NCBI RefSeq assembly: GCF_000241055.1
Contig: NZ_CM001398.1
Span: forward strand, 1,187,119-1,251,118
Origin: Oenococcus kitaharae DSM 17330
GTDB lineage: Bacteria; Bacillota; Bacilli; Lactobacillales; Lactobacillaceae
DNA: 64,000 bases
Direction: 5' to 3'
Position 1 is the stretch's first letter, and the number at the start of each line of letters is the position of its first letter. Below the pieces are notes generated by a model. The model saw only the letters and a list, made by a program, of their open reading frames with translations, had not been told where the DNA came from and did not search any database. Shown here piece after piece: positions 23,834-43,362 of the stretch. A program made the translations under genes and the position numbers.

Positions 23834-23861
23834 TGATGCCGTCGGTGGGAGTCGAACCCAC
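23834..23861 (-). repeat. tRNA/tmRNA 3'-end-like fragment
   Basis: On the minus strand a perfect T-arm (GTGGG TTCGACT CCCAC) is followed by CGACGGCATCA, the layout of an acceptor strand plus discriminator. No 5' half of a tRNA lies next to it; instead a protein-gene terminator does. It may be a relic of an integration site. Related sequence occurs at 27790 and 34133. Confidence 0.5.
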
Positions 23862-23889
23862 AAAAAAACAAGCCTCACGACTTGTTTTT
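23862..23889 (-). terminator. terminator of the 85-residue membrane protein gene
   Basis: AACAAG ... CTTGTT stem followed by seven T on the minus strand; the stop codon lies in the loop. The same terminator recurs at 27804 and 34147. Confidence 0.75.
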
Positions 23890-24132
23890 CTTATGGATAA
23901 ATCCGTCTTTTTTAAAAGCGCGATAAGTGTTGATGACACCGAAAAAAATCAGAAAGGCCGATGCAATGATCCCAGTCATGTATTTGCCCAGCGTGCTCAG
24001 GACATCCGGCTGCTGTGAAAAAATCAGTAAATTCACCGTAAAGACAAAGAAGAGAGTTATAAAAATGTCGAAAATATCAAAGGCTAGATGCAACCACCGC
24101 CAGCGTTTTGCTTTTGTCACTTTGTCAGTCAT
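23875..24132 (-). CDS. small membrane protein
   Basis: 85 residues with two clear hydrophobic helices (about 20-37 and 50-68) and basic ends. GAGAGGAAA precedes the ATG. Family not recognised; hypothetical, but the ribosome site and terminator support a real gene. Confidence 0.7.
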   Translation of the reverse strand: MTDKVTKAKRWRWLHLAFDIFDIFITLFFVFTVNLLIFSQQPDVLSTLGKYMTGIIASAFLIFFGVINTYRAFKKDGFIHKKNKS

Positions 24133-27789: not shown

Positions 27790-27869
27790 GGAATCGAACC
27801 CACAAAAAAACAAGCCTTTCGATTTGTTTTCTACTGTATATTAGTTGCCTTGTGTGATCAAATTATAGG
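27790..27869. repeat. left direct repeat of the integrative element (attL-like)
   Basis: 80 bp, 76 identical as read to 34133-34212. It contains on the minus strand a copy of the last codons of the phnD-like gene (SYNLITQGN and stop), its terminator (27804-27830) and a TTCGATTCC T-loop-like end. No gene precedes this copy, so it is a stranded 3' end, as expected when an element integrates at a gene's 3' end and brings a replacement. Confidence 0.82.
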
Positions 27870-28365
27870 AACGCCATAGGCTACGAAGTTGTTTTGAAGA
27901 GGAATTTTCCGATAACAAAGAATTGAGAGGGGGCACTATCATTTCAAACCTAAATTCTGTTCACCAGATTGCTTGCCACACTGTCAAAATTCTGAAAGAA
28001 AACGATGAATTTTATAAAAGAATTCCAGAAAATCTAAGAAACAAAATAGACCAAAAAGATACACAAAAAAGTCTACCAAAAAGTAGTCTGGTGGGCTTCA
28101 ATTTGTCTATTTATTATTGATCTGGCTGCAATATTGGTTAGTAAGTCGATGCACCTACTGTTACTTTTGCGTAATTGTCAATTCTTTTAGTTGAGTCGGC
28201 GTTATTTAGGAAGTGATAACGCCAATATTTGCTTATTTCATCAAGATTTAAGTTGCGCTTTATCATAAATTTGTTATTCTATTGTCAAAATCAAGGTAAT
28301 ATATTGATATGATAACGTTTAGTAGGACTATCAAAAAATTTAAGAAAAGATAAAATGATGACCCA
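27870..28365. other. gene-poor left end of the element
   Basis: AT-rich, no convincing gene. A frame at 27923-28120 (65 residues, basic) has a GAGAGGGGG ribosome-like site but no ATG at the correct distance, so it may be a decayed gene. An inverted repeat GGCGTTAT - 10 bases - ATAACGCC lies at 28198-28223, and TGATAACG recurs at about 28308; these could be operator remnants of the CI-like repressor next door. Confidence 0.5.
28198..28223. promoter_or_regulatory. inverted repeat, possible phage-type operator
   Basis: 8-bp arms GGCGTTAT / ATAACGCC upstream of the CI-like pseudogene; half-site TGATAACG appears again before that gene. Function inferred from position only. Confidence 0.4.
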
Positions 28366-29002
28366 ATGTCAATTAACTCGGGTTCATATTATTCTTGTAT
28401 CTTACTATTGGAAAGAAATATGAGGTCAGTGCCAAGTATGAAGGTGCTTAATCAGTTATCAAGTAGCCTTAGAGCAGAAAAATCAATTCTCTATCAGGCT
28501 GCAGGATTTGTTCCAAGTGGTACGGATGATTTTGATTCTAATATCAACATTAGTCATCCCCTCTCATTTTTAAAGATGAGGAGGTTCCCCAATTACCCAT
28601 TTATGGCCGGATTTTTGCAGGTGCGCCATCTGGCGTTCAAGAAAATATTGAGGGTGCAATTACACCCAAAAAAGTTTGGTCGATAAATACGGTTTAGATG
28701 AATTGATGGGTTTACGCGTGGTTGGAGACTCCATGACCAAAGCCAGCATTGCTGAAAACGCCGTTGCTGTGATTCATAAAACATCCGATTTCGATAATGG
28801 GAATATCGTAGTGGCCATCATTAATAACGATGCAGGTACCTTGAAAAGAGTTTATAAGCGGCCCGATGGCATTTATCTTGAGCCTGATAGTTACGATCCC
28901 ATTTATAAGCCATTTCCATATACTGAAAAACATATAAAAGACGAGGATCCAAGTGTCATTATCGTGGGCGTGTATCTGTACTCTGTAAGTGGAATTATTT
29001 AA
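28366..29002 (+). pseudogene. CI-like phage repressor (XRE plus S24 peptidase-like), broken
   Basis: Fragments in three frames join into one repressor: a helix-turn-helix remnant with an internal deletion (LLLERNM... then VLNQLSSSLRAEKSILYQAA), the linker LPIYGRIFAGAPSGVQENIEG, and the S24-like C-terminal fold from 28676 (LRVVGDSMTKASIAENAVAV, TLKRVYKRPDGIYL). Restoring one T at 28567-28571 and one A at 28668-28673 makes the reading continuous. The Ser of GDSM, used for self-cleavage in this family, remains. The whole protein cannot be made, so repression of the element is probably lost. Confidence 0.8.
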
Positions 29003-29008
29003 AAACGC

Positions 29009-29025
29009 ACGTGCAGCGACCACGT
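29009..29025. promoter_or_regulatory. 17-bp inverted repeat, candidate operator (copy 1)
   Basis: ACGTG CAGCGAC CACGT, upstream of the DUF4041 gene. It differs at one base from the copy at 31356-31372. Confidence 0.55.
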
Positions 29026-29054
29026 AAAACCGGATAAGATAAAATGAATTAATA

Positions 29055-30455
29055 ATGAGCGTTTATAACACACTAGCTGTTTGGCAAAGGATTGAAAAAA
29101 TGGGAATTAAAAACGATCTATCAAATTTCATTAATAGGAAAATCTATTCGAAGGAAGAAATTGAAAAAAATAAGCAAGAACTTCTCAAGCTTCGTGCCAA
29201 AATTGAAAAAAATAAAGTCCAATTAAAAAAATTAAAAGAGACAATTGCTGTTTCTCGAAATGAGTTTGACAACATTAACCAATCGATTTCAGCAGATAAG
29301 GAACTCAGTCAAATATTAGATCTTCAAAAGAAAGCCCACGAAAACCTTACTAATTTATTGGATAAAATCAAGTCTGAAAACAATGTTCAAGAATCAGGAC
29401 TTTTCATACCAAGATATAATTTCGCAAGTTCGTTAAATTACAAAGATAAACTCGCTAGAATTCGTGAGAACGAAAAATTAATGATTGATACTGGAGACGC
29501 CGTGATGATAAAGGAACGGGTATCCCTGAACGGAGATTATGACAAAGGTGAAGCATTACAGAATTCACAGGCAAAAGCATTAACACGATGCTTTAACGGC
29601 GAAGCAGACGCGATTATATACAAAGTAACAGCAAGCAACTGGGAGCAAAGGAATAAACAACTGGGCAGAATTTTTGTTTCTCTCAATAGAATTTTCAAAA
29701 AACAATATATGTCCATCTCTGAAGCCTACCTGAGACTGAAACAAGATGAACTTAAGTTGGCGGCGGAATACGAACTTAAAAAAGAAGAAGAAAGAGAGGC
29801 ATTGAGAGAACAAAGAGAAAAGGAACGAGAAGATAAAAAACTCCAAGAAGAAATTAAGAATGCTAGAAAACAAATTGAAAAAGATAAGCATCAATACCAG
29901 AATGCAATTCTAAAAACTCAAGAGCGTTTACAAAATGCGGCATCAACTGAAATAGCCAAATTAAAACAGCAGTTGGAAGAATATAGACAAAAAATGGCCG
30001 ATTTGAGTGCGGAAGAAGAAAGTGTTGACTATCGGGAAGGGCATGCCACGGCTGGTTATGTTTATGTAATTTCTAACATCGGTTCATTTGGAGAAGGAAT
30101 TTTTAAAATTGGAGTAACGAGGCGTCTAGATCCCTATGAACGTATTGCGGAGCTTAGTAGCGCATCTGTGCCATTCAGATTTGATGTTCATACAATGATT
30201 TTTAGTGAAGATGCTTATGGGCTTGAAACCGAACTGCACCAAACGTTTGACAAATACAAAGTAAATCAAGTTAACCTCAGAAAAGAATATTTCAAAGTTC
30301 CTTTGAAAGATATTGAAGATGTTTTGGCCAAACACAAAGATTTAACTGTCGATGTTACGGAAAATGCTGAAGCTTTTGAATTTCATCAAAGTCTAGCAAT
30401 TGCTAGTCAAAAGCTGAATACAAAAGTACATACTGCGGCCACTTTAATTCACTAA
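29055..30455 (+). CDS. DUF4041 plus GIY-YIG (T5orf172/MUG113) protein
   Basis: 466 residues. Coiled coil at about 30-110, DUF4041-like domain about 115-235 (KALTRCFNGEADAIIYKVT), a long charged coiled coil about 235-325, and a C-terminal GIY-YIG-type nuclease domain (GYVYVISNIG, FKIGVTRRLDPYERIAEL, and the probable catalytic Glu in GLETELHQTF). An alternative start at 29100 has the better ribosome site (AAAGGA). Such proteins are frequent in prophages and mobile elements; their job is not established. The ion-channel gene starts 4 bases after its stop, so the two are coupled. Confidence 0.88.
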   Translation: MSVYNTLAVWQRIEKMGIKNDLSNFINRKIYSKEEIEKNKQELLKLRAKIEKNKVQLKKLKETIAVSRNEFDNINQSISADKELSQILDLQKKAHENLTNLLDKIKSENNVQESGLFIPRYNFASSLNYKDKLARIRENEKLMIDTGDAVMIKERVSLNGDYDKGEALQNSQAKALTRCFNGEADAIIYKVTASNWEQRNKQLGRIFVSLNRIFKKQYMSISEAYLRLKQDELKLAAEYELKKEEEREALREQREKEREDKKLQEEIKNARKQIEKDKHQYQNAILKTQERLQNAASTEIAKLKQQLEEYRQKMADLSAEEESVDYREGHATAGYVYVISNIGSFGEGIFKIGVTRRLDPYERIAELSSASVPFRFDVHTMIFSEDAYGLETELHQTFDKYKVNQVNLRKEYFKVPLKDIEDVLAKHKDLTVDVTENAEAFEFHQSLAIASQKLNTKVHTAATLIH

Positions 30456-30459
30456 GAAA

Positions 30460-31098
30460 ATGAAAACAAAAATATTAAATATCTTTTTATATTTACTTGC
30501 TGCAATCTCCATCCCACTAGCATTCATGGACACATCAAAAGCACCGCTTATTTTTGCAGACTGGGGAATTTGGATCATTTTTGTTTTTGACTATTTTTTT
30601 GAATTCAATCTAGCTAAAGATAAAAGAAATTATTTAAAGCACCATATCATAGAACTCATCTCAATCATCCCCTTTAATGCGTTCCCGGCATTTAGAATTT
30701 TAAGAATCGTGAGAGTCTTCGCCTTCGCTGGCCGTTTTCTGCATAAAACCAAAGACTTTCTTATCGAAACAAAAGTCTATATTGCTTTTATCATTACCGG
30801 CATCATCCTGATCATTTCAGGATTGTTATTCGCCTTTTACCAAAAAGATAACTTTCTAGATGGCCTATTTTGGGCCCTAGGTGTAGCGACAACAAGCGGG
30901 TCCCCATTCACTGCTACCAAAATGGTGATTAAGATCGTCAATATTATTCTCATGTTTACCGGAATTGGACTAGTTGGGTATTTCACCGGTGCATTGGCAA
31001 GTTGGTTAACGAAGGACGATATTTCCAACAATGATATTGATAAAAAACTAGATGAAGTACTGAAGAGAATCGATCTTATTGAGAGTGAAAGGAAATAA
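30460..31098 (+). CDS. voltage-sensor-type ion channel protein
   Basis: 212 residues with about six hydrophobic segments. An S4-like helix FRILRIVRVFAFAGRF (Arg every third residue) lies near residue 76, a pore loop near residue 140 (ALGVATTSGSPF) and a glycine-rich last helix (FTGIGLVGYFTGALASWL). The selectivity filter of K+ channels is TVGYG; here the aligned stretch is TSGSP, so selectivity is probably altered. The C-terminus is a short coiled coil. It lies between the DUF4041 and XRE genes, with gaps of 4 and 6 bases, as one operon. Confidence 0.85.
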   Translation: MKTKILNIFLYLLAAISIPLAFMDTSKAPLIFADWGIWIIFVFDYFFEFNLAKDKRNYLKHHIIELISIIPFNAFPAFRILRIVRVFAFAGRFLHKTKDFLIETKVYIAFIITGIILIISGLLFAFYQKDNFLDGLFWALGVATTSGSPFTATKMVIKIVNIILMFTGIGLVGYFTGALASWLTKDDISNNDIDKKLDEVLKRIDLIESERK

Positions 31099-31104
31099 CA
31101 CAAA

Positions 31105-31320
31105 ATGAGTGACACTGAAAAACAATATTTTGCAAGTCAACTACGTCAAGCCGTTGATAATTCTGATCTGACATACAGCGACCTTGCTCATACAAGCGGT
31201 ATTAGTCTATCCACAATTAATCGATGGAAAGAAGGAAAAGCAGTACCAAGATTTGAGAATATTCTCAAACTCGCTGACGCACTGAATGAAAGTATCAATT
31301 GGTTTCTTGGCCGTTATTAA
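31105..31320 (+). CDS. XRE-family HTH regulator
   Basis: 71 residues, a single helix-turn-helix domain: LTYSDLAHTSGISLSTINRWKEGKAVP, then ENILKLADAL. It starts 6 bases after the channel stop. It is the only intact DNA-binding protein of the element and a natural candidate to bind the two 17-bp inverted repeats. Confidence 0.9.
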   Translation: MSDTEKQYFASQLRQAVDNSDLTYSDLAHTSGISLSTINRWKEGKAVPRFENILKLADALNESINWFLGRY

Positions 31321-31355
31321 TGTAATCAGTTAATTACTATGAGCTTAACGTACAT

Positions 31356-31372
31356 ACGTGCTGCGACCACGT
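31356..31372. promoter_or_regulatory. 17-bp inverted repeat, candidate operator (copy 2)
   Basis: ACGTG CTGCGAC CACGT, 17 bases before the DUF4177-like gene. The sequence around it (about 31349-31395) also resembles 30424-30465 at the end of the DUF4041 gene, so a longer segment may have been duplicated. Confidence 0.55.
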
Positions 31373-31388
31373 TAATCCACCAAGGAAA

Positions 31389-31688
31389 ATGAAAATGGGA
31401 TTATTTTCACAGTCACAGAAAAACAGCAGCGAGAATGTTTATACAAACAGCGTTTTGCCTAACCTACATGCTAAAGACGGCAATAAACATATTGTCATGA
31501 TCACGAGCTTCAGTAAATGGATCGACCAGGTGTTTGGTGTTGAATCTAAATATACGACTCAAGTTGGCTACATTGTCGATAAAATGCAAGAAGACGGCTA
31601 TGAAATAGTCGCTATCGAACATACAACTTTGCAAAATCAGGGCATGTTTAAATCCATGGAAGGATTTCATACTTTAATTTACCTATAA
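31389..31688 (+). CDS. DUF4177-like small protein
   Basis: 99 residues. The C-terminal half (TTQVGYIVDKMQEDGYEIVAI, then LQNQGM and MEGFHTLI) fits the short DUF4177-type family. The start has a weak AAGG site; an in-frame ATG at 31395 is possible. Function unknown. Confidence 0.65.
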   Translation: MKMGLFSQSQKNSSENVYTNSVLPNLHAKDGNKHIVMITSFSKWIDQVFGVESKYTTQVGYIVDKMQEDGYEIVAIEHTTLQNQGMFKSMEGFHTLIYL

Positions 31689-31735
31689 GTGATAACTAGC
31701 TATGAGTCGAAAGAAGCGAATTAAAGGTTAATAAG

Positions 31736-32944
31736 ATGTCAAATGGAGATTTAGATAATTTCATAGCTGCAGAGTTGCAGAAGCTTGATAAAGATATAAA
31801 TTTAGATTTTCAGGACTTATATGTGGATTTCAAGAATTCAGATTTAATAAATCTTCTCTCAACTTTACAGAGCTTAATAAGTAGCGATTATGTCACAGAT
31901 AGTTTCGCTATGAATCAACGGCTTCCAACGGATGATAATGAAGCATACTTTTGGGCCCCTGAGAGCAGGAAAATTCTGTCACATATTAGAACAATCGAAA
32001 GACTGCAAGATTTTTTGGTGGGCAATGAAGATGAGTTTCAAATTGATTCTTATTATAAAAATATTTTTGATAATTCGCTCAAGTTTCTAAAGCCTACAGG
32101 TGGAAGCGTTATTCCACCGCACACTGCAGAAGTTACTCTTTATTTGAAGAAACCTATTTTTTTGAAATCTGAGAAATTTAACATTAAGAGAAGTAACGAA
32201 AGCAATTGGATCAACAAGCAATTAATTGGCCAAGGATCATATGCCAGGATATATAAATATAACGATCCATTTTACAAAACCACTTTTATTCTAAAGTCTG
32301 CTCAGCCAGATCTTAATGACCAAGAGCTAAGACGATTCAAACAAGAATTTGCAATTTTACGAAAATTGGACTCGCCTTATATCGTCAAAGTCTACGATTA
32401 CAATGAGACCAACAACACGTACACTATGGAGTACATGAAATCTGATCTAGACAAATTTATAAATCACAATAATAACAAACCAGATTTCAATAAATCGACA
32501 AGATTTTCAATAGTTAACCAGTTATTTGCCGCATATAAATATGTGCATGATCAAGGAGAACTTCAGCGAGATGTTAATCCAAAAAATATTTTAATTAATC
32601 AGTATGGAGATCAAACAATTGTTGTTAAATTATCCGACTTCAATTTGGCAAAAATTCCTAATAGTGAAATTACCGAAAGCGTTAGTGAAGTCAAGGGCCA
32701 TCTAAAATACATCGACCCTGCTTTACCGGACTATGACTTTAAGCACTATGGGATTAAGAACGAAATCTACTCTATTGCACTAGTAATCAATTTCGTTATG
32801 ACCGGGAAAGAATCATTTAAAACAACTAAAAATGAACAATTTGATCATTTTATGCAGAAAGCCACTGACTTGAACATAAATAATCGCTACGAAAACGTGT
32901 CAGAAATGAAGGCGGCTTTCAAAAAAATAATTTTTGACGAATAG
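31736..32944 (+). CDS. Ser/Thr protein kinase-like protein with DFN motif
   Basis: 402 residues. The first ~160 are an unrecognised domain. The kinase fold runs from about 163: glycine loop IGQGSYARIYK, ATP lysine K187 (FILKSA), catalytic loop LQRDVNPKN with D279 and N284, and D301-F302-N303 in place of DFG. GHLKYIDPALP replaces the usual APE region. The key Lys and both Asp remain, so activity is possible. No membrane helix or PASTA domains, so it is not the housekeeping PrkC/Stk1. Its place beside an Abi-alpha-like gene suggests a defence role, which is inference. Confidence 0.88.
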   Translation: MSNGDLDNFIAAELQKLDKDINLDFQDLYVDFKNSDLINLLSTLQSLISSDYVTDSFAMNQRLPTDDNEAYFWAPESRKILSHIRTIERLQDFLVGNEDEFQIDSYYKNIFDNSLKFLKPTGGSVIPPHTAEVTLYLKKPIFLKSEKFNIKRSNESNWINKQLIGQGSYARIYKYNDPFYKTTFILKSAQPDLNDQELRRFKQEFAILRKLDSPYIVKVYDYNETNNTYTMEYMKSDLDKFINHNNNKPDFNKSTRFSIVNQLFAAYKYVHDQGELQRDVNPKNILINQYGDQTIVVKLSDFNLAKIPNSEITESVSEVKGHLKYIDPALPDYDFKHYGIKNEIYSIALVINFVMTGKESFKTTKNEQFDHFMQKATDLNINNRYENVSEMKAAFKKIIFDE

Positions 32945-33069
32945 TTTATAGACAGTAAACTTCATCAGGTTAAAAAACACATGCATTTATGAAAATTTTA
33001 TTGACATCGTAACTGACATTAAATTTTATATGAAGTCTAATCGGAAATATGAAGAAGGGAAACACTATC

Positions 33070-33846
33070 ATGGCTGGAGATATTAACTTTGATTTAGGAC
33101 AAATACTACCTGAAAAAAGCATGGACGCACTTTTATATCCGACTTGCAAAGATCTTGGCATTCTTGCAGGGGGATTGGTAACAGCAATTACAAAACCGCT
33201 TCTAAAGTGGTCACTTTGTCAACAACAGGACATTGATGACTATCAAAATAAAATACAAAAGAATTTAAATACTATACCCGAGGACCAACTAGCAACTGAT
33301 AAATTTGGAATGGCAATCAAAGCACTTAACGATTCACGGTTCCAATTAGGTGATGAAGGTTTGAGAGAAATGTTCGCGAAACTGATTGCAACAACTTTTG
33401 ATAAAAGAAAAAATGAAAATTTGGTCCCACTATTTTCATCTCTCCTATCAAACATGTCACCAAAGGAAGCTGGATTCCTAAAAAAGTGGTATGAAAAAAC
33501 TAAAGTATCACATTTTAACTCCGTCGTCATCAATATGGTTCAGCAAAATTCCATTGGCACTCAATTTCCTCTTTTAGATGGAATCCTGGTATATCCAGAT
33601 GGATCAATGGAAAATGATGCATTAAATATTAATCTCCTAGAAAGTGCTGGCCTTATGGTTAGGTATAGAGGTCGAGAACTGAAGCATGAATTATTTCAAA
33701 AGCAGTATATTTCTGCTGAAAATTATTTCAAAAGCATTAAAGTGCCTCAAGAAAAATTCATGCCAGACTGTCATTTGGAATCAGAAAGAGGATATGTGAT
33801 TTTGACAGAATTAGGCAAAATGTTCACGAATGTTTTGTTTGATTGA
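33070..33846 (+). CDS. Abi-alpha (DUF4393) family protein
   Basis: 258 residues from ATG 33070, chosen because GAAGGGA lies 9-10 bases upstream; the frame is open from 33049. FGMAIKALNDSRFQLGDEGLREMFAKLIATTFDKR near residue 85 and PLFSSLLSNMSPKEAGFLKKW fit the family PF14337 (Abi_alpha, formerly DUF4393). Members are linked to abortive infection by family name; the mechanism is not known to me. About 125 bp after the kinase gene. Confidence 0.82.
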   Translation: MAGDINFDLGQILPEKSMDALLYPTCKDLGILAGGLVTAITKPLLKWSLCQQQDIDDYQNKIQKNLNTIPEDQLATDKFGMAIKALNDSRFQLGDEGLREMFAKLIATTFDKRKNENLVPLFSSLLSNMSPKEAGFLKKWYEKTKVSHFNSVVINMVQQNSIGTQFPLLDGILVYPDGSMENDALNINLLESAGLMVRYRGRELKHELFQKQYISAENYFKSIKVPQEKFMPDCHLESERGYVILTELGKMFTNVLFD

Positions 33847-33868
33847 TAAATGTTTCCTACAAATAGTT

Positions 33869-34083
33869 ATGAAAAAAGTAACCATATATCTATCTACGGG
33901 TCTTTACTCTGGAGCAAGCTGAAAGCGGCTATTCGATTGATGAGCAGATCTCTAAATTAACTTATATACGTTGAAGTGAAAGATTGGACCGTCTATCAAG
34001 TTTATAAAGATCCTGGCTTTTCTGGATCTAACATTAAACGCCCAGCCATCACGAAATTGCTTGGAATTTTTGAACAACTTTAG
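33869..34083 (+). pseudogene. large serine recombinase (integrase), N-terminal remnant
   Basis: Pieces in different frames read as the resolvase N-terminus: MKKVTIY from 33869, then RVFTLEQAESGYSIDEQ, then EVKDWTVYQVYKDPGFSGSN and KRPAITKLLG, ending at the stop at 34081. At least two frameshifts, and the whole C-terminal DNA-binding part is absent. Its place just inside the right repeat is where an integrase gene of such an element belongs. Confidence 0.85.
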
Positions 34084-34132
34084 TTATCTTTATTTTAACG
34101 ATACTGGTTTTATGTTCACAATGGCCCAGCCC

Positions 34133-34212
34133 GGAATCGAACCCACAAAAAAACAAGCCTTTCGACTTGTTTTCTACTATATATTAGTTGCCTTGTGTGA
34201 TTGAATTATAGG
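34133..34212. repeat. right direct repeat of the integrative element (attR-like)
   Basis: 80 bp, 76 identical as read to 27790-27869. It includes the last codons of the intact phnD-like gene and its terminator. About 6.3 kb lies between equivalent positions of the two repeats. Confidence 0.82.
34147..34173 (-). terminator. terminator of the phnD-like gene
   Basis: On the minus strand AAACAAG TCGAAAGG CTTGTTT followed by more T, starting about ten bases after the stop. Confidence 0.8.
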
Positions 34213-35101
34213 CTTTTCTGACAACATTGAAGTTACTATTTTTCGAACGCTCAAAGCCGGCGATGCCATAAAGGTTTTCGACGAGCTTTTTGCCTTTTTT
34301 CGTCTTCACGATTTGCATGAAGGCTTTAGAAATTTTCTGATCCAGCGAAGAAGACAAAGTCTTGCGAACCGTGATCGTATCATTAGGAATCTTCATGGTC
34401 TGTGCCAAAATCCGCGTGTCTTTGAAAATGTTAGGCACATCGCTCTTGACGAGGTTGCGGGCATCCTGATAAACGAATGCAGCGTCTGCCTGCTTGTTTG
34501 CCAAGGCCAGAACCCCTTGATCATGGCCTTTGACAGTAACGAGATGGGCATTTTTCACAACATCGATTCCTTTAGCATTCAGGTAGTAGATCGGGAAGAT
34601 GTAACCCGAAGAACTGGTCGAATCCTGGACCGCGATATTTTTGCCTTCGAGGTCTTTTAAGCTCTTGATATTGGAATCCTTGCGGACAAGAATCAGTGAC
34701 CGGTACCAGCTGACCATTTTCTTTTGATTGGAGCCGTCGTGATTGATGCCGTTTCGTACGACTTGAAGCAGGACTTTGGATCCATACTGCTTGTGTGCCT
34801 GGACGTAGCTTGCAGGCGGTAGGAAACCAACATCGATTTTGCCGGAGCCTAGGGCCTCGACGATCGAATTATAATCAGTGGAAACGGTGACCTGGACTTT
34901 TTTGCCTAAGCGTTTGGATAACATTTTTCCTAACGGGATGGCGCGGGCCTGCATGGTTGACGCATTCTCAGAAGGGACGAATCCAACGCGGATTGTCTTG
35001 GGATTGCGGCTTTGTGCAGCTGAAGCAGGGGATGCAGGCAGGCTGACAATCAGACCAGCCGCCAGCAGCAGACTGCCGATAAAGGTGATAATTTTTCTCA
35101 T
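34184..35101 (-). CDS. phosphate/phosphonate-type ABC transporter substrate-binding protein (PhnD-like)
   Basis: 305 residues. Cleavable signal peptide (MRKIITFIGSLLLAAGLIVS, then Ala-rich APASA-like site near residue 28). The fold starts KTIRVGFVPSENASTMQARA, typical of PhnD/PtxB proteins, with VQDSTSSSGYIFP near residue 155. GAGAGTGAG precedes the ATG. No permease or ATPase gene is adjacent, so it is an orphan; either the transporter is elsewhere or its partners were lost. Its 3' end is the integration site of the neighbouring element. Confidence 0.88.
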   Translation of the reverse strand: MRKIITFIGSLLLAAGLIVSLPASPASAAQSRNPKTIRVGFVPSENASTMQARAIPLGKMLSKRLGKKVQVTVSTDYNSIVEALGSGKIDVGFLPPASYVQAHKQYGSKVLLQVVRNGINHDGSNQKKMVSWYRSLILVRKDSNIKSLKDLEGKNIAVQDSTSSSGYIFPIYYLNAKGIDVVKNAHLVTVKGHDQGVLALANKQADAAFVYQDARNLVKSDVPNIFKDTRILAQTMKIPNDTITVRKTLSSSLDQKISKAFMQIVKTKKGKKLVENLYGIAGFERSKNSNFNVVRKAYNSITQGN

Positions 35102-35301: not shown

Positions 35302-37002
35302 ATGATAAATCCGCCAATCATTAAAAAAATAAAGTATTCCGAGGCTTCGATTGAGAGTCTTGATGATGTTTTAATCAACTCTGAGGAAAAGCACTACATT
35401 GAGGATTATCCGACTGTTTATGTTGTCAATGACAAAAAAGATAATGCAGGGAGGCTGAACTTTGATGTCTATGTTGGAGAAGCCAACTGGATTATTCAGA
35501 GAACAAAACAGCATCTTGAGAATGCAAATGATAAATTACAGCATTTGAATTCTGATGCGCAGATCATGATTATTGGCCATGATCATTTTAATAAGTCAAT
35601 GACTTTGGATATTGAGAACCGGCTTATCAATCATATGATTGGCATTGATAATGTTGTTTCCTTGAATGGCCGGGGCAATCAGCAGGGAACTTATTTCACC
35701 TCCAATTTGACAGGCGAAATTTTTAATAAAATATGGCGAAAAATGCATCTGATTGAGCCTGAATTAATTCCACCTCTAAATGTTGTCAGAGATTCGGCAC
35801 TTTTCAAAGCTTCGCCATTCCATAACCTTTCCGAAGAACAGCGAAATGATAAAAACCAAATTGTTGCGGAAACCGAGGCTGCACTTTCTAGAGACGAAAT
35901 TGGCCAGTTAATCATTGTCGAAGGAGCCGCCGGAACTGGCAAAACAGTCTTGCTGAGCAGCTTGTTCTATGAATTCGCCTCACACGGCGGAGGAGAATTC
36001 AGCAACTCGATTATTAATGATGCGAGGAGTTTTCTGCTTGTGAATCATGACCAGCAGTTGACTGTTTACCAGCAAATCGCCAAGAAACTTAATTTGAGTT
36101 CAAAAAATAAAGAAGTCGTTTATAAGCCGACTGTCTGGCTAAATTATATGGAAAACCAGCCAATTGCTGATGTTGCCTTAGTTGATGAGGCACATTTACT
36201 TTGGACTCAAGGTAAACAAGCTTATCGTGGCAAAAATCAACTGGATGATATTCGCAAACATGCCCGAGTTGTGATTGCTGTTTTCGACAAAAATCAGATT
36301 CTGAGATCCGAACAGCATCTGTCCGATGAGTCAATCGCGAAATTATATGTTGGAGCAAAGGTGATTAAGCTGAATCATCAATTTCGCATCCACGCAAACG
36401 AGAATACAATTCAGTGGATTGATGATTTTGTTGAAGGCACACTCACCAAAATCCCTAAAGACGACAGCTACGACCTGAAAATTTTTGATGATCCCGAAAA
36501 AATGTACGAGCAAATTAAGCAAAAGAATCAAGATCAGCGATTCGGCTTGTCCCGTATGCTCGCGACTTTTGATTGGAAATATATTGAAAACAAGGAGCCT
36601 GAAAATGGCGGGCTCTGGCGTGTGACCGTTGGTGATTTCTCATTGCCATGGAATTTGGAATTAGAAAATAAAACCAATAGGAAACGCAATAAAGGTCTTT
36701 CTTGGGCTGAGCGGGATTATACAATTAATGAAATTGGATCAACATTTACGATTCAAGGTTTCGATTTAAATTATGCAGGTTTGATTATCGGGCCATCGGT
36801 TAAATGGCGTAATGGTCGTTTGGTCTTTGATCGCGATGCAAGTGCCAATCATAATGCAATTAAAAAACGTGACGGTCAGGATTTTTCTGAGCAGCACCTT
36901 CGAAATGAGTTAAATGTGTTAATTAAAAGAGGTGTCCGCGGCTTATGTATTTATGCAGTCGATGATGAACTGCGAAATAAACTTATGTCTTTGACGAACT
37001 AA
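35302..37002 (+). CDS. GIY-YIG nuclease-like plus DUF2075 ATPase/helicase-like protein
   Basis: 566 residues. Residues about 30-75 (PTVYVVNDKK, FDVYVGEANWIIQRTKQH) form a GIY-YIG-like domain. From about 175 a P-loop ATPase of the DUF2075 family follows: Walker A VEGAAGTGKTVLL with K214, Walker B VALVDEAHLLW near residue 292, and later helicase-like blocks (KLNHQFRI, and TIQGFDLNYAGLIIG near residue 485). Family members resemble superfamily 1 helicases. The fusion is common in mobile or defence neighbourhoods. It lies between the integrative element and cas9, with no proven link to either. Confidence 0.85.
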   Translation: MINPPIIKKIKYSEASIESLDDVLINSEEKHYIEDYPTVYVVNDKKDNAGRLNFDVYVGEANWIIQRTKQHLENANDKLQHLNSDAQIMIIGHDHFNKSMTLDIENRLINHMIGIDNVVSLNGRGNQQGTYFTSNLTGEIFNKIWRKMHLIEPELIPPLNVVRDSALFKASPFHNLSEEQRNDKNQIVAETEAALSRDEIGQLIIVEGAAGTGKTVLLSSLFYEFASHGGGEFSNSIINDARSFLLVNHDQQLTVYQQIAKKLNLSSKNKEVVYKPTVWLNYMENQPIADVALVDEAHLLWTQGKQAYRGKNQLDDIRKHARVVIAVFDKNQILRSEQHLSDESIAKLYVGAKVIKLNHQFRIHANENTIQWIDDFVEGTLTKIPKDDSYDLKIFDDPEKMYEQIKQKNQDQRFGLSRMLATFDWKYIENKEPENGGLWRVTVGDFSLPWNLELENKTNRKRNKGLSWAERDYTINEIGSTFTIQGFDLNYAGLIIGPSVKWRNGRLVFDRDASANHNAIKKRDGQDFSEQHLRNELNVLIKRGVRGLCIYAVDDELRNKLMSLTN

Positions 37003-37128
37003 TATTAAAAACTAAATTTTAATGATATTTGGTATCAGCCATTCTTTCAAATAGCCATTTATTTTTTTAATTTTGCTTATATTTCCGTGTTAATTAAGTT
37101 TAAAATTATATCGAAAAGGATGGTTTTT

Positions 37129-40100
37129 ATGGCACGGGATTATTCAGTTGGGTTGGATATTGGAACGAGTTCTGTTGGCTGGGCGGCGATTGACAATAAA
37201 TATCACTTGATTCGAGCAAAAAGTAAGAATTTGATCGGAGTCAGGCTTTTTGATTCTGCCGTTACTGCAGAAAAAAGACGAGGCTATCGTACGACACGTC
37301 GGCGATTGTCACGCAGGCACTGGCGTTTAAGGCTATTGAACGACATATTTGCAGGGCCACTGACAGATTTCGGGGATGAAAATTTTCTTGCACGTCTCAA
37401 ATATTCTTGGGTTCATCCACAGGACCAATCAAACCAGGCTCATTTTGCCGCCGGACTCTTGTTCGATTCCAAAGAACAGGATAAAGATTTTTATAGGAAA
37501 TATCCCACAATCTACCATTTACGATTGGCATTGATGAATGATGACCAAAAGCATGATCTCAGAGAAGTCTATTTAGCGATTCATCATCTAGTCAAATATC
37601 GTGGTCACTTTCTCATCGAAGGCGATGTGAAAGCAGATTCTGCTTTTGACGTACACACTTTTGCAGATGCTATTCAGAGATATGCCGAGTCAAATAATTC
37701 GGACGAAAATTTACTTGGTAAAATTGATGAAAAGAAGTTGTCTGCTGCATTAACTGATAAACATGGTTCGAAGTCTCAACGCGCAGAAACAGCAGAAACT
37801 GCTTTTGACATTTTAGATCTACAAAGCAAAAAACAAATTCAGGCAATTTTAAAATCTGTCGTTGGTAATCAAGCTAATTTGATGGCGATATTTGGCTTGG
37901 ATTCATCAGCTATTTCCAAAGATGAACAAAAAAATTACAAATTCTCTTTTGATGATGCTGATATTGATGAGAAAATTGCAGATAGTGAAGCATTGCTGTC
38001 AGATACTGAATTTGAGTTTCTTTGTGATTTAAAGGCGGCTTTTGATGGTTTGACCTTGAAAATGCTTCTAGGCGATGATAAAACGGTCAGTGCCGCGATG
38101 GTTCGCCGCTTTAATGAACATCAAAAAGATTGGGAATACATAAAATCTCATATTCGTAATGCAAAAAATGCCGGCAATGGTCTCTATGAGAAAAGCAAAA
38201 AATTTGATGGTATCAACGCAGCCTACTTGGCTTTACAAAGCGATAACGAGGATGATCGCAAAAAGGCCAAAAAAATTTTTCAAGATGAAATAAGTTCTGC
38301 CGACATTCCGGATGATGTAAAAGCTGATTTTCTTAAAAAAATTGATGATGATCAATTCTTACCAATTCAAAGAACAAAAAATAATGGTACGATTCCTCAT
38401 CAGCTTCACCGTAATGAACTGGAACAAATTATTGAAAAACAAGGTATTTATTATCCATTTTTGAAGGATACATATCAGGAAAATAGTCATGAACTGAATA
38501 AAATAACGGCTCTAATTAATTTTCGTGTGCCGTATTATGTCGGCCCCTTGGTAGAGGAAGAACAAAAAATTGCAGATGATGGAAAAAATATTCCCGATCC
38601 AACCAATCATTGGATGGTAAGAAAGTCCAATGATACGATTACGCCATGGAATTTAAGTCAAGTCGTAGATTTGGATAAATCAGGCAGGCGATTTATTGAG
38701 AGATTGACGGGTACGGATACATATTTGATAGGCGAACCCACATTACCAAAAAATTCGCTTTTGTATCAGAAATTTGATGTTCTACAGGAACTAAACAATA
38801 TCCGAGTATCCGGCCGCCGTTTGGACATTAGGGCAAAACAAGACGCATTCGAACATCTTTTTAAGGTACAAAAAACAGTCTCAGCAACGAACTTGAAGGA
38901 TTTTTTGGTTCAGGCCGGTTATATTTCAGAAGATACTCAAATTGAAGGATTGGCTGATGTAAATGGGAAGAATTTTAATAATGCACTAACAACCTATAAT
39001 TATCTTGTTTCGGTTTTAGGAAGAGAATTTGTTGAAAATCCTAGCAATGAAGAATTGTTGGAAGAAATAACAGAATTACAAACCGTTTTTGAAGATAAAA
39101 AAGTCTTGCGCAGGCAGCTTGACCAGTTAGATGGCCTTTCCGATCATAATCGAGAAAAACTGTCAAGAAAGCATTACACCGGTTGGGGACGGATTTCAAA
39201 GAAACTTTTAACCACAAAAATTGTTCAAAATGCTGATAAAATTGATAATCAGACTTTTGATGTTCCCCGTATGAACCAAAGTATCATTGATACTCTGTAC
39301 AATACAAAAATGAATTTGATGGAGATTATTAATAACGCGGAGGATGATTTTGGCGTTCGGGCCTGGATTGATAAACAGAATACGACGGATGGGGATGAGC
39401 AAGATGTTTACAGTCTCATTGATGAGTTAGCTGGTCCAAAGGAAATAAAACGTGGTATTGTTCAGTCCTTTCGAATCCTGGATGACATCACAAAAGCTGT
39501 TGGCTATGCTCCGAAACGTGTTTACCTAGAATTTGCAAGAAAAACACAAGAATCACATCTAACTAATTCTCGAAAAAATCAGCTAAGCACATTATTAAAA
39601 AATGCCGGGCTGTCGGAACTTGTGACTCAGGTGAGCCAATATGATGCTGCCGCTTTGCAAAACGACCGCCTATATTTGTACTTTTTGCAGCAAGGCAAAG
39701 ATATGTACTCTGGCGAAAAGTTGAATTTAGATAATCTTTCAAATTACGATATTGATCATATTATTCCGCAAGCCTACACGAAAGATAATTCTTTAGACAA
39801 CCGTGTGCTTGTCAGCAATATTACTAACAGGCGCAAATCTGATTCGTCAAATTATTTGCCAGCTTTAATCGATAAAATGCGCCCATTCTGGTCTGTGCTT
39901 TCAAAGCAGGGCCTATTGAGTAAACACAAATTCGCTAATCTGACTCGGACACGTGATTTTGATGATATGGAGAAAGAGCGTTTTATTGCACGTTCGCTGG
40001 TAGAAACACGCCAAATTATCAAAAATGTTGCCAGCTTGATTGATTCGCATTTTGGCGGTGAAACAAAAGCCGTTGCCATTCGTTCATCATTAACGGCTGA

Positions 40101-41298
40101 CATGCGGCGTTATGTCGATATTCCTAAAAACCGTGATATTAATGATTATCACCACGCGTTTGATGCCTTACTTTTTTCAACTGTCGGTCAATATACAGAA
40201 AATAGCGGACTAATGAAAAAAGGTCAGCTTTCAGACAGTGCGGGAAACCAATATAATCGTTATATCAAAGAGTGGATTCATGCTGCTCGTTTAAATGCTC
40301 AGTCGCAAAGAGTTAATCCATTTGGTTTTGTTGTTGGGTCTATGCGGAATGCTGCTCCCGGAAAATTGAATCCAGAAACTGGTGAGATTACGCCAGAGGA
40401 GAATGCTGATTGGTCCATTGCTGATTTGGATTATCTGCATAAAGTGATGAATTTTAGAAAAATAACTGTGACTCGCAGGTTAAAAGACCAAAAGGGCCAA
40501 TTATATGATGAAAGTCGTTATCCATCCGTTTTGCATGATGCCAAAAGCAAAGCATCCATCAACTTTGATAAACACAAGCCCGTAGATCTATACGGTGGAT
40601 TTAGTTCAGCTAAACCGGCCTATGCTGCATTAATTAAATTTAAAAATAAGTTTCGATTGGTCAATGTGCTGCGGCAATGGACTTATTCTGATAAGAATTC
40701 TGAAGATTACATTTTGGAACAGATTCGTGGAAAATATCCTAAGGCTGAGATGGTCTTGTCACATATACCATATGGCCAGTTGGTAAAAAAAGATGGTGCT
40801 TTAGTTACTATCTCATCAGCGACTGAATTGCATAATTTCGAACAGCTATGGCTGCCTTTGGCTGACTATAAATTAATTAACACTCTCTTGAAAACAAAAG
40901 AGGATAATCTCGTTGATATTTTGCATAACCGCTTAGACTTGCCTGAAATGACTATTGAATCAGCTTTTTACAAAGCTTTTGATTCGATCTTATCTTTTGC
41001 TTTCAATAGGTATGCTTTGCATCAAAATGCATTGGTAAAGTTACAAGCACATCGTGATGACTTTAATGCTTTAAATTATGAAGATAAACAGCAGACTCTG
41101 GAGAGGATTTTGGATGCCCTGCATGCGAGCCCGGCTTCTTCGGACTTGAAGAAAATCAATTTATCGAGTGGATTCGGGAGATTATTTTCTCCCTCGCATT
41201 TCACATTGGCAGATACTGATGAATTCATATTCCAGTCTGTCACTGGTTTATTTTCTACTCAAAAAACTGTTGCACAGTTGTATCAAGAGACAAAATAA
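37129..41298 (+). CDS. cas9: CRISPR-associated endonuclease Cas9 (type II-A)
   Basis: 1389 residues from ATG 37129, preceded by AAAAGGA; the frame is open from a GTG at 37087. RuvC-I has D10 in GLDIGTSSVGWAAID; the arginine-rich bridge helix (RRGYRTTRRRLSRRHWRLRL) is near residue 60; RuvC-II has E801 (YLEFARKTQ); HNH has H877 in YDIDHIIPQ; RuvC-III has H1009 and D1012 in DYHHAFDALL. All catalytic residues are present, so it should cut both strands of a target. The C-terminal ~250 residues form the PAM-interacting part. The length matches my memory of O. kitaharae Cas9. Confidence 0.98.
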   Translation: MARDYSVGLDIGTSSVGWAAIDNKYHLIRAKSKNLIGVRLFDSAVTAEKRRGYRTTRRRLSRRHWRLRLLNDIFAGPLTDFGDENFLARLKYSWVHPQDQSNQAHFAAGLLFDSKEQDKDFYRKYPTIYHLRLALMNDDQKHDLREVYLAIHHLVKYRGHFLIEGDVKADSAFDVHTFADAIQRYAESNNSDENLLGKIDEKKLSAALTDKHGSKSQRAETAETAFDILDLQSKKQIQAILKSVVGNQANLMAIFGLDSSAISKDEQKNYKFSFDDADIDEKIADSEALLSDTEFEFLCDLKAAFDGLTLKMLLGDDKTVSAAMVRRFNEHQKDWEYIKSHIRNAKNAGNGLYEKSKKFDGINAAYLALQSDNEDDRKKAKKIFQDEISSADIPDDVKADFLKKIDDDQFLPIQRTKNNGTIPHQLHRNELEQIIEKQGIYYPFLKDTYQENSHELNKITALINFRVPYYVGPLVEEEQKIADDGKNIPDPTNHWMVRKSNDTITPWNLSQVVDLDKSGRRFIERLTGTDTYLIGEPTLPKNSLLYQKFDVLQELNNIRVSGRRLDIRAKQDAFEHLFKVQKTVSATNLKDFLVQAGYISEDTQIEGLADVNGKNFNNALTTYNYLVSVLGREFVENPSNEELLEEITELQTVFEDKKVLRRQLDQLDGLSDHNREKLSRKHYTGWGRISKKLLTTKIVQNADKIDNQTFDVPRMNQSIIDTLYNTKMNLMEIINNAEDDFGVRAWIDKQNTTDGDEQDVYSLIDELAGPKEIKRGIVQSFRILDDITKAVGYAPKRVYLEFARKTQESHLTNSRKNQLSTLLKNAGLSELVTQVSQYDAAALQNDRLYLYFLQQGKDMYSGEKLNLDNLSNYDIDHIIPQAYTKDNSLDNRVLVSNITNRRKSDSSNYLPALIDKMRPFWSVLSKQGLLSKHKFANLTRTRDFDDMEKERFIARSLVETRQIIKNVASLIDSHFGGETKAVAIRSSLTADMRRYVDIPKNRDINDYHHAFDALLFSTVGQYTENSGLMKKGQLSDSAGNQYNRYIKEWIHAARLNAQSQRVNPFGFVVGSMRNAAPGKLNPETGEITPEENADWSIADLDYLHKVMNFRKITVTRRLKDQKGQLYDESRYPSVLHDAKSKASINFDKHKPVDLYGGFSSAKPAYAALIKFKNKFRLVNVLRQWTYSDKNSEDYILEQIRGKYPKAEMVLSHIPYGQLVKKDGALVTISSATELHNFEQLWLPLADYKLINTLLKTKEDNLVDILHNRLDLPEMTIESAFYKAFDSILSFAFNRYALHQNALVKLQAHRDDFNALNYEDKQQTLERILDALHASPASSDLKKINLSSGFGRLFSPSHFTLADTDEFIFQSVTGLFSTQKTVAQLYQETK

Positions 41299-41325
41299 AA
41301 GTCCGCAAGTGAATGCGGACTTTTT
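41297..41325. terminator. bidirectional terminator shared by cas9 and tracrRNA
   Basis: Stem AAAAGTCCGCA / TGCGGACTTTT with T runs on both strands. It overlaps the cas9 stop codon on the plus strand and ends the tracrRNA on the minus strand. Confidence 0.9.
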
Positions 41326-41396
41326 ATGTATTGTGGGCATAAGCCCTTCTGCACATAAAATGTGAAGAAAATTAAGCTTGAAATTAATCTTGCTTT

Positions 41397-41434
41397 ACTT
41401 CAATGCTGTGTGTCAGATCAATGAGGTAGAACCC
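41397..41434 (-). other. tracrRNA anti-repeat
   Basis: On the plus strand it looks like a degenerate CRISPR repeat (TGTGTCAGATCAATGAGG and the end GTAGAACCC are intact; the first ~10 bases differ). The change sits exactly at the bulge and lower stem of the guide duplex. Confidence 0.92.
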
Positions 41435-41469
41435 AATGATGTTTGGGATGATCAATCCCAAACATCATT
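41435..41469. repeat. perfect 15-bp inverted repeat at the tracrRNA 5' end
   Basis: AATGATGTTTGGGAT / ATCCCAAACATCATT around GATCA. It adjoins the anti-repeat and overlaps the tracrRNA -10 box. No T tract on either side, so not a terminator. Confidence 0.8.
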
Positions 41470-41495
41470 AGAACATAATTCGGGAGTGCTTGCAA
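41467..41495 (-). promoter_or_regulatory. tracrRNA promoter
   Basis: On the minus strand TTGCAA, 17-base spacer, TCTAAT. The -35 overlaps the bases just before the cas1 ATG (41497), and the spacer covers the cas1 GGGAG ribosome site. Confidence 0.75.
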
Positions 41496-41496
41496 G

Positions 41497-42366
41497 ATGG
41501 CATGGCGAAATATTTTAATTAATCAACATTGTAAAATCTCTTACAAAATGAATATGTGCGTCGTTCAGACTGAAACAGATGTTCATCAGATTCCGGTGGA
41601 AGATATTCGACTACTGGTTATTGCAACCACAAGAGCCGTGATTACCACTTATGCAGTCATGGAACTGCTTAAAAGACAAGTCGGTATTTTGTTTACTGAC
41701 GACAAGGCTTTTCCGATTGGTGAGATCAATAATTATTTAGGTGGTGGCAATCGAAATAAAAATATCCAGCAGCAGGTTGATTGGCCCATTGAAAGAAAAC
41801 AAAATTTATGGGCCGAGATAGTTAAATCCAAAATATTGAATCAATCGAAATGTCTAGATTTTTTTTCTGAAAATGATCGATCACTAGAGCAGCTAATCAT
41901 ACAGGTTAATCAGAACGATAATTCGAATAGAGAAGCTGTCGCTGCACGCATGTATTTTACGAGACTTTTTGGCCCGAGTTTCGTCAGGCACAATGATGAT
42001 GAACCTATTAATGCGTTGCTAAATTATGGTTATTCGATTCTGTTATCGACCGTTGCTCGAGAAATTTCATCAAATGGTTTTCTGACAGAACTTGGCATTC
42101 ATCATAATAGCCAAGAAAATGTTTTTAACCTCGCCTGTGATCTGATGGAACCCTTTCGTCCGATTATTGATCGTGCTGTTGCACAAATGACAGATTTTGA
42201 TTTATCACTGCAGCATAAGATAGAGCTAATTGAATTATTTGATGATGAAGTGGGTTATTTGCAACACCAAGCGACTGTTAACAGTGCCATTACGGAGTAT
42301 GTAAGAAACGCACTCGACTATTTATGTGGCAAGCGACCGGAAGTTGCGGTTAGTGTGGCGATATGA
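41497..42366 (+). CDS. cas1: CRISPR-associated endonuclease Cas1
   Basis: 289 residues, type II-A length. Metal-binding residues: E146 in NREAVAARMYF, His in LGIHHNSQENVF (202/203) and the acidic patch NLACDLMEPFRP near residue 215. With Cas2 it integrates new spacers. The ribosome site GGGAG is ten bases before the ATG and lies under the antisense tracrRNA promoter. Because a strong terminator follows cas9, cas1 may have its own promoter or depend on read-through. Confidence 0.96.
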   Translation: MAWRNILINQHCKISYKMNMCVVQTETDVHQIPVEDIRLLVIATTRAVITTYAVMELLKRQVGILFTDDKAFPIGEINNYLGGGNRNKNIQQQVDWPIERKQNLWAEIVKSKILNQSKCLDFFSENDRSLEQLIIQVNQNDNSNREAVAARMYFTRLFGPSFVRHNDDEPINALLNYGYSILLSTVAREISSNGFLTELGIHHNSQENVFNLACDLMEPFRPIIDRAVAQMTDFDLSLQHKIELIELFDDEVGYLQHQATVNSAITEYVRNALDYLCGKRPEVAVSVAI

Positions 42367-42683
42367 GGTATCGAATTATGCGCTTAATGATTTTTTTTGA
42401 TCTACCGACTTTAACAGCCTCAGATAGACGAAATTACAGACAGTTTCGAAAGATGTTGATTAATGAGGGATTTTTGATGATTCAAGAAAGCGTATATGTG
42501 AGAGTCGCTATGAATCGAAAATCTGCGGACTTTTTAGTTAAGCGCGTCGCACAGCTTTGCCCGAAAAGTGGCATTGTTCAGTCGCTCATGATCACGGAAA
42601 ACCAATATGCCTCCATCGAATTTTTGGCCGGTAATCCTATTGAAGATGTTCGAAATAGTGATGCAAAGGTAGTGGTGATATGA
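42363..42683 (+). CDS. cas2: CRISPR-associated Cas2
   Basis: 106 residues. It starts MRYRIMRLMIFFDLPTLTAS, the Cas2 beta-strand with the conserved Asp; ATGA overlaps with both cas1 and csn2 show tight coupling. It bridges two Cas1 dimers in the adaptation complex. Confidence 0.96.
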   Translation: MRYRIMRLMIFFDLPTLTASDRRNYRQFRKMLINEGFLMIQESVYVRVAMNRKSADFLVKRVAQLCPKSGIVQSLMITENQYASIEFLAGNPIEDVRNSDAKVVVI

Positions 42684-43342
42684 ATTATCAAATTACGAGA
42701 TACCCATTTGATCCTGTTGCTCTTGATACGGGACTGAATATACTCTCGGTTGAGGATACACAATTATTTTTTGATTTTTGTCAAGATTTTCAGTCAGAAG
42801 AAGGAAAGACAATCATTACGAGTGGTGGGAAACAGCTCGTGATGCAAAAAAATATGACGTTTTTTGGGGATGTGACACGAGTTTTTGATTTTAATCAGCT
42901 TTATTTAAAAGCAGCAATCAAAACTTTATCAAAAAATTTTGACGAAATGGATTTGCAACAGCTTGACGATCTTAACGGTCAAATTAATCGGTTATTTACA
43001 AAGGTCATTTTTTCTAGCAATTTACCAATAGATTTAAACTTAGAATTTGATTTAATGGAGACAATCAAATCTAGGAAAATCGTGATAGATATGCCCATTC
43101 TCAACACGCCCTACGATAAAATTCGAAGTACAATAGATCTAGCAGCTGAGTTGTCAGATCCTCATTTGCTTGTTTTTACGAATGCTTTTCAATACTTGAC
43201 TATGGGCCAAACCAATCAATTGGCTGAATATTCAAGATCAATGGAAAGAAATGTCTTATTTTTAGAAAGGTTTGATTCCAAAATTGATCTCACTGAAGCA
43301 GCTAATTCCTATTTCTTCGATAAAGACTTTGTCCAATTCTAG
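42680..43342 (+). CDS. csn2: CRISPR-associated Csn2
   Basis: 220 residues, the usual size of the short Csn2 form. It defines subtype II-A. It starts NYQITRYPFDPVALDTGLNI; Csn2 forms DNA-encircling tetramers needed for spacer acquisition. The first CRISPR repeat begins only 20 bases after its stop. Confidence 0.94.
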   Translation: MNYQITRYPFDPVALDTGLNILSVEDTQLFFDFCQDFQSEEGKTIITSGGKQLVMQKNMTFFGDVTRVFDFNQLYLKAAIKTLSKNFDEMDLQQLDDLNGQINRLFTKVIFSSNLPIDLNLEFDLMETIKSRKIVIDMPILNTPYDKIRSTIDLAAELSDPHLLVFTNAFQYLTMGQTNQLAEYSRSMERNVLFLERFDSKIDLTEAANSYFFDKDFVQF

Positions 43343-43362
43343 AAAGTACGAACATGCGGTCT

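Follow-up and report, generated by a model that had tools for sequence, protein, structure and literature searches.

A segment with defence-like genes beside a phnD-like gene of Oenococcus kitaharae, probably a grounded prophage

A segment of about 6.3 kb in the chromosome of Oenococcus kitaharae DSM 17330 is bounded by direct repeats, has a broken repressor gene at one edge and a broken recombinase gene at the other, and carries six intact genes between them. The locus raises the question of what this segment once was, and whether its genes have been kept by selection. The window analyzed here is a 64-kb stretch of the 1.83-Mb chromosome (a second contig has 8.3 kb), and positions are those of the window unless another locus is named. 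The segment is very probably a grounded prophage, that is, the lysogeny module (cI, cargo and integrase) of a temperate Oenococcus phage, the rest of which is gone. The features discussed below are as follows.

23837..23890, minus strand: third, partial copy of the repeat; terminator and a 25-nt copy of the 3' end of tRNA-Leu(CAA)
27790..27869, minus strand: left direct repeat; copy of the phnD 3' end, decayed terminator, tRNA T-arm-like GTGGGTTCGATTCC
28328..28996, plus strand: CI-like repressor pseudogene (HTH and S24 peptidase); the S24 half matches PF00717
29009..29031, plus strand: linker copy 1, about 6-8 nt after the cI stop codon, upstream of the DUF4041 gene
29055..30455, plus strand: DUF4041/GIY-YIG protein, 466 aa, PD-Lambda-1 (SNIPE) homologue; PF13250, PF10544, PF13455
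30460..31098, plus strand: voltage-gated-type ion channel, 212 aa; PF07885
31105..31320, plus strand: Cro/CI-type HTH protein, 71 aa; PF01381
31356..31378, plus strand: linker copy 2, upstream of the 99-aa gene
31389..31688, plus strand: 99-aa protein, phrog_17572 (E 6e-43)
31736..32944, plus strand: Ser/Thr protein kinase, 402 aa, Stk2/PD-T4-6 like; PF00069 (E 2e-30)
33049..33846, plus strand: Abi-alpha (DUF4393) protein, 265 aa; PF14337 (E 2e-29), PADLOC PDC-S47
33861..34062, plus strand: broken remnant of a large serine recombinase; the first ~62 of ~480 residues are left
34133..34212, minus strand: right direct repeat; genuine 3' end and strong terminator of the phnD-like gene, single copy in G005
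34184..35101, minus strand: phnD-like gene (phosphonate/phosphite substrate-binding protein), the host gene adjoining the site; PF12974 (E 1e-63)

Repeats and insertion site

The initial annotation had described 80-bp direct repeats, each holding the 3' end and terminator of the phnD-like gene, and both statements are correct. The repeats are identical at 76 of 80 positions (95%), have direct orientation and lie 6,343 bp apart. They enclose 6,263 bp with a GC content of 35.0% in a neighborhood of 45-46% (45.6% and 45.5% in the flanks, 47.4% in the phnD gene). GC3 in the element is 0.25-0.41 compared to a host mean of 0.47 (sd 0.05), and the proposed check of composition thus marks the interior as foreign. 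Each repeat contains the phnD-like gene's final ~9 codons and the terminator, the fold of which has decayed on the left: the hairpin of the right copy has -18.8 kcal/mol (z -3.2 against shuffles), whereas the left copy folds no better than shuffles (z -0.1). Furthermore, at three sites the left copy alone is changed and the right copy is identical to that of the nearest relative, genome G005, whose phnD-like protein is 97% identical. The left repeat is therefore the redundant copy. The two repeats are nearer to each other in sequence than either is to the copy of G005, as would be expected of a duplication that took place later than the divergence from G005 or only shortly ahead of it.

When the whole genome was searched with the 80-bp repeat, the sole further match was a 41-bp partial copy at 23848-23888. 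This third copy may well be an att relic, given that a terminator is annotated close to the attP core of phage fOgPSU1. A block related to the third copy is present at the matching place in G005.

The suggestion that the repeats were made by the element's own recombinase had to be abandoned. Large serine integrases leave a core of only a few base pairs, and relatives of this recombinase are located at other sites (in a comG operon in locus L089). The 80-bp repeat consequently needs a different origin, and it may derive from an attP in which the phage had the end of phnD, from an earlier event catalyzed by a tyrosine integrase, or from ectopic recombination.

An empty phnD site had been expected in a relative, but the comparison did not provide a clean one. 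G005 has one copy of the repeat and lacks the element, but 5.9 kb of other genes, coding for an aldo-keto reductase (AKR), membrane, Asp23-like and glycosyltransferase proteins (L384 600-6450), are located between phnD and the shared left flank. The searched portion of this insert has no match in the genome of the window except for a 67% AKR paralogue. Because of this unrelated DNA the comparison is suggestive only, and the site is variable. On its outer side, the left repeat is preceded by a 78-aa open reading frame that is an Oenococcus gene, with a 76% identical counterpart in genome G003 (probably O. sicerae) and none in G005.

A Schlafen helicase and a type II-A CRISPR-Cas block occupy 35302-47156, just to the right of the element. 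The helicase (35302-37002, between phnD and cas9) belongs to Schlafen group 3, has an N-terminal GIY-YIG-like domain and gives weak PADLOC matches to Nhi and AbiO, making it a further defense candidate. In G005 the place of the block (L027 11700-14980) is taken by partial hsdR/hsdS genes and CRISPR-repeat remnants; at the cas position there are a 363-aa HsdR/integrase fusion, HsdS and a CRISPR-repeat remnant, as described for O. kitaharae CRBO2176 (PMC9867325). Judged by this comparison of the two genomes, defense genes turn over at one locus.

Broken edge genes and intact cargo

The genes at both edges are as shattered as had been claimed. The CI-like repressor aligns to residues 6-216 of an intact oenococcal prophage cI, against which it has at least three frameshifts as well as in-frame stops in its N-terminal half. 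What is left of the serine recombinase corresponds to residues 3-64 of a phage integrase of 483 aa and has an early stop and a frameshift. It has no catalytic serine at the aligned position, and functional catalytic and DNA-binding domains are not present. The description of these genes as dead mobility and lysis-control genes is right about their state, but the repressor is a lysogeny repressor and not a lysis gene. The stretch 27870-28300 has no match, no convincing coding remnant was found in 27870-28365, and structural, replication, lytic or lysis genes are present neither there nor elsewhere in the element; the full phage ancestor is consequently one that we infer, from the lysogeny half.

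Six cargo genes lie between the dead cI and the dead recombinase and, in agreement with the initial annotation, all are of full length compared to their relatives. Their order is DUF4041-GIY-YIG, ion channel, HTH, 99-aa protein, Ser/Thr kinase and Abi-alpha. Three of the six match defense families by profile, namely the predicted PD-Lambda-1/SNIPE-type nuclease, the Stk2/PD-T4-6-like kinase (tentatively) and Abi-alpha.

The DUF4041-GIY-YIG protein matches the PADLOC PD-Lambda-1 model over its full length (E 2e-122) and thus has the same domains as PD-Lambda-1/SNIPE (PMC13190303; PMC9519451). PD-Lambda-1, now renamed SNIPE, acts as a nuclease on phage DNA while this is being injected (PMC13190303), and its homologues protect Streptococcus thermophilus from some phages (PMC12322248). 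Unlike typical SNIPE, the protein encoded by the element is without an N-terminal transmembrane segment, as are 34% of the homologues (PMC13190303). No hydrophobic or transmembrane segment was found in it or in its relatives from phages of lactic acid bacteria in L035, L095 and L116. The next gene, 5 nt downstream, codes for a membrane channel.

The channel is 88.7% identical to a gene in an intact Oenococcus prophage. A dN of 0.05 and a dS of 0.7-1.7 between the two indicate strong constraint, in which both branches are reflected. Homologues of the HTH protein immediately precede the integrase in Oenococcus phages, and Lj928, bIL312 and oenophages carry homologues of the 99-aa protein in the interval bounded by cI and the integrase. 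The predicted structure of the 99-aa protein had a mean pLDDT of 58 and was set aside.

The best PADLOC match of the kinase is Stk2 (E 1e-32), but general kinase models match it too, and the assignment to the Stk2/PD-T4-6 defense kinases is tentative for this reason. A kinase domain is what it has in common with these anti-phage kinases; the N-terminal ~150 residues are different, and the activity is a prediction. QRD and DFN replace the HRD and DFG motifs, with both aspartates retained. Among 301 Lactobacillaceae genomes full-length relatives of the kinase occur in only two others (G177 and G231).

Abi-alpha matches PF14337 with 103.8 bits (the curated cut-off is 29) over positions 2-195 of the 196 in the profile. 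It belongs to the same Pfam family as Abi-alpha of prophage 6 of Enterococcus V583, presented in the accessible part of PMC6356687 as a prophage-borne abortive infection gene. The same part of that paper, from 2019, notes that abi-alpha of O. kitaharae is located near other putative Abi genes, possibly in a resistance island, so that to this extent the defense reading was already known; it contains no description of a prophage remnant, of the repeats or of the other genes of the element. Peptide patterns retrieved no close relatives of the kinase, Abi-alpha or the 99-aa protein from viral contigs, and promoter and terminator scans of the cargo gave results at the level of chance.

Kinship with oenophage lysogeny modules

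The arrangement of a dead cI, a series of cassettes and a dead integrase on one strand is that of a lysogeny module from which the phage has gone. The order was compared with that in loci L113, L034, L035 and L093-L097. The intact Oenococcus prophage of G003 (L113) has cI, a SHOCT gene, an ion channel, a membrane gene, HTH and a tyrosine integrase, and the genes of the element are 49% (cI), 89% (channel) and 35% (HTH) identical to their counterparts there. DUF4041 relatives are found between cI and integrase in Javan633 and PLE3, a channel relative in PLE2, and Abi-alpha relatives in G2-Guo and LF1. Relatives of Abi-alpha also occur outside this interval (OlisA3 and StauST398-1), and in JNU_P5 the channel is on the cI side and the integrase lies outside the stretch seen. 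In a search of 401 Lactobacillaceae genomes the whole interior was complete only here.

The same one-strand order of cI, cargo, HTH and integrase characterizes the lysogeny modules of temperate oenophages (the O. sicerae prophage, PMC9867325; fOgPSU1 and OE33PA6), which have the ion channel, the HTH protein, the 99-aa family and a linker motif in common with the element. Unlike these modules, the element has a dead cI and integrase, has lost its phage, had a serine recombinase for its integrase and has a larger cargo, with DUF4041, the kinase and Abi-alpha in addition. Since the Oenococcus phages examined have tyrosine integrases, a class to which this recombinase does not belong, the module is a mosaic. 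The prophage of O. sicerae UCMA15228 has 45.3 kb, and mitomycin C lysed the culture; an 89% match to O. kitaharae was noticed in that study, where the corresponding regions were taken as not mobile (PMC9867325). Grounded, or domesticated, prophages likewise are small, have a defective integrase and no morphogenesis genes, and keep genes that are useful to the host (reviewed in PMC6379469). Phage remnants of O. oeni sit at tRNA genes (PMC8074189), whereas the element adjoins the phnD-like gene at its 3' end.

A second prophage remnant is present in the same genome (L244, G000:C1:901500-920000). It contains a cI remnant and the linker motif, and an intact-looking tyrosine integrase gene that adjoins tRNA-Glu(CTC), with tmRNA beyond.

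The linker is a sequence of 23 bp, ACGTGCnnCGnCCACGTTAATCC, located directly after cI and before the cargo genes, and its pattern is ACGTGCnnCG(n)CCACGTTAATCC. This genome contains three instances of the pattern, two in the element and one in the L244 remnant (at 9149, near the cI remnant). It occurs twice in G003 (L113 10038-10059 and 10926-10943) and is absent from five other members of the genus. The tight pattern was found in 12 viral contigs, nearly all with cI, HTH or integrase matches around it and two of them matching known O. oeni phages; in all 12 it is positioned 10-25 nt upstream of a start codon. A test independent of the motif gave the same picture: all seven modules with a cI similarity of at least 60% (L385-L391) carry the linker just after cI, with 19-21 of 21 positions matching, a count that omits other cI matches that were too short or not scanned. 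Two remote cI relatives lack the linker. By these sequence comparisons the linker is apparently diagnostic of oenophage lysogeny modules. No prior report of it was found in the literature searched.

A loose form of the pattern was of no use in the viral and genome collections, where chance matches dominated. Those in Lentilactobacillus look, by eye, like ssrA and are presumably coincidental. An RNA hairpin was also considered for the linker, and it folds no better than shuffles.

The placement of the linker at cassette junctions suggests a recombination linker or DNA site. The second junction in the element sits where other phages pass straight to the integrase. Tentatively, and with some doubt, the linker may be a functional exchange or regulatory site that lets defense cassettes swap into Oenococcus lysogeny modules, of which the element would preserve two junctions.

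Origin and retention of the segment

The segment was initially regarded as a degenerate integrative element. A degenerate mobile element with defense-like cargo it is, but it appears to be the lysogeny module of an oenococcal phage and not a free-standing element. The small size, the load of defense genes and the repeats at both ends would also fit a phage satellite or a small integrative element that had at no time been a complete phage and whose entire load, framed by 80-bp att repeats, was a regulator, a serine recombinase and defense cargo, and a homologue of the 99-aa protein is indeed present in bIL312, a 15-kb phage-like element. Such an origin is nevertheless quite improbable. Neither the open reading frames nor the PHROG matches include the hallmarks of PICI-like satellites, i.e. 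primase or other replication genes and packaging-interference genes; cI, channel and HTH match the lysogeny module of the intact Oenococcus prophage in order; and, from what is generally known of the family, a large serine recombinase does not yield 80-bp repeats. Least probable is a defense island of the chromosome that grew by the addition of single genes close to CRISPR-Cas; the phage fragments at its margins would then be unrelated to it, and the repeat would be a separate duplication. The neighboring Schlafen-type helicase and type II-A system, the turnover of the region in G005 and a recombinase that does not explain the repeat would suit such an island, but the cargo is bordered precisely by cI to its left and the integrase to its right, all of this is on a single strand, and the linker motifs of oenophages occur within it.

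The claim that the cargo has been retained by selection holds conditionally. The cargo comprises 4,563 nt with zero lesions, where 5.5 to 32 disabling ones are expected if the repeats date a neutral insertion, and cI and the integrase together have at least 5 lesions in ~860 nt. The probability of zero lesions in the cargo ranges from 0.004 to 9e-15 over the range tried. The expectation assumes that the left repeat diverged neutrally after the insertion, which is the weak point of the selection argument. If the repeats do date the insertion, the intactness of the cargo beside its decayed neighbors is, on this estimate, greater than neutral decay would leave. A young insertion, compatible with the prophage reading, could have left the cargo intact with no selection or host benefit; the promoter-like sites at chance level agree with this, and the repeats would fail to date the insertion if the left copy was phage-borne and already divergent. 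This explanation is unlikely, because the lesions of cI are several and arose independently, and the integrase, besides being truncated, has at least a frameshift and an early stop, all of which takes time, and because 4.6 kb of cargo are free of lesions, with a probability of 0.004 or less even at 1.25% neutral divergence.

The grounded prophage would then have had the following history. A temperate phage would have inserted beside the phnD-like gene, probably later than the separation of this lineage from its nearest relative. In phages of this kind, lysogenic-conversion cassettes come after cI on its strand, and the integrase comes last. Here the lytic and structural genes are missing, cI and the integrase have decayed, and the six cassettes are left. 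Their transcription may start on the old cI side and take in all six as a single operon-like unit. Near the membrane, incoming DNA would be cleaved by the DUF4041 nuclease, and infections that escape it would be aborted by the kinase and Abi-alpha. The content and order of the genes in this scheme are observed; their expression and defense activity are predictions.

The observation is real and of a known kind, a grounded prophage with defense cargo, and the linker motif is its newer element. The segment illustrates how a defense island can be left by a dead prophage. It offers a concrete block that can be cloned, with three predicted anti-phage genes next to CRISPR-Cas, in a genus relevant to food, in which fermentations are spoiled by attacking phages. 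The linker makes the trading of cassettes among temperate phages directly testable in a small and well-sampled group of phages.
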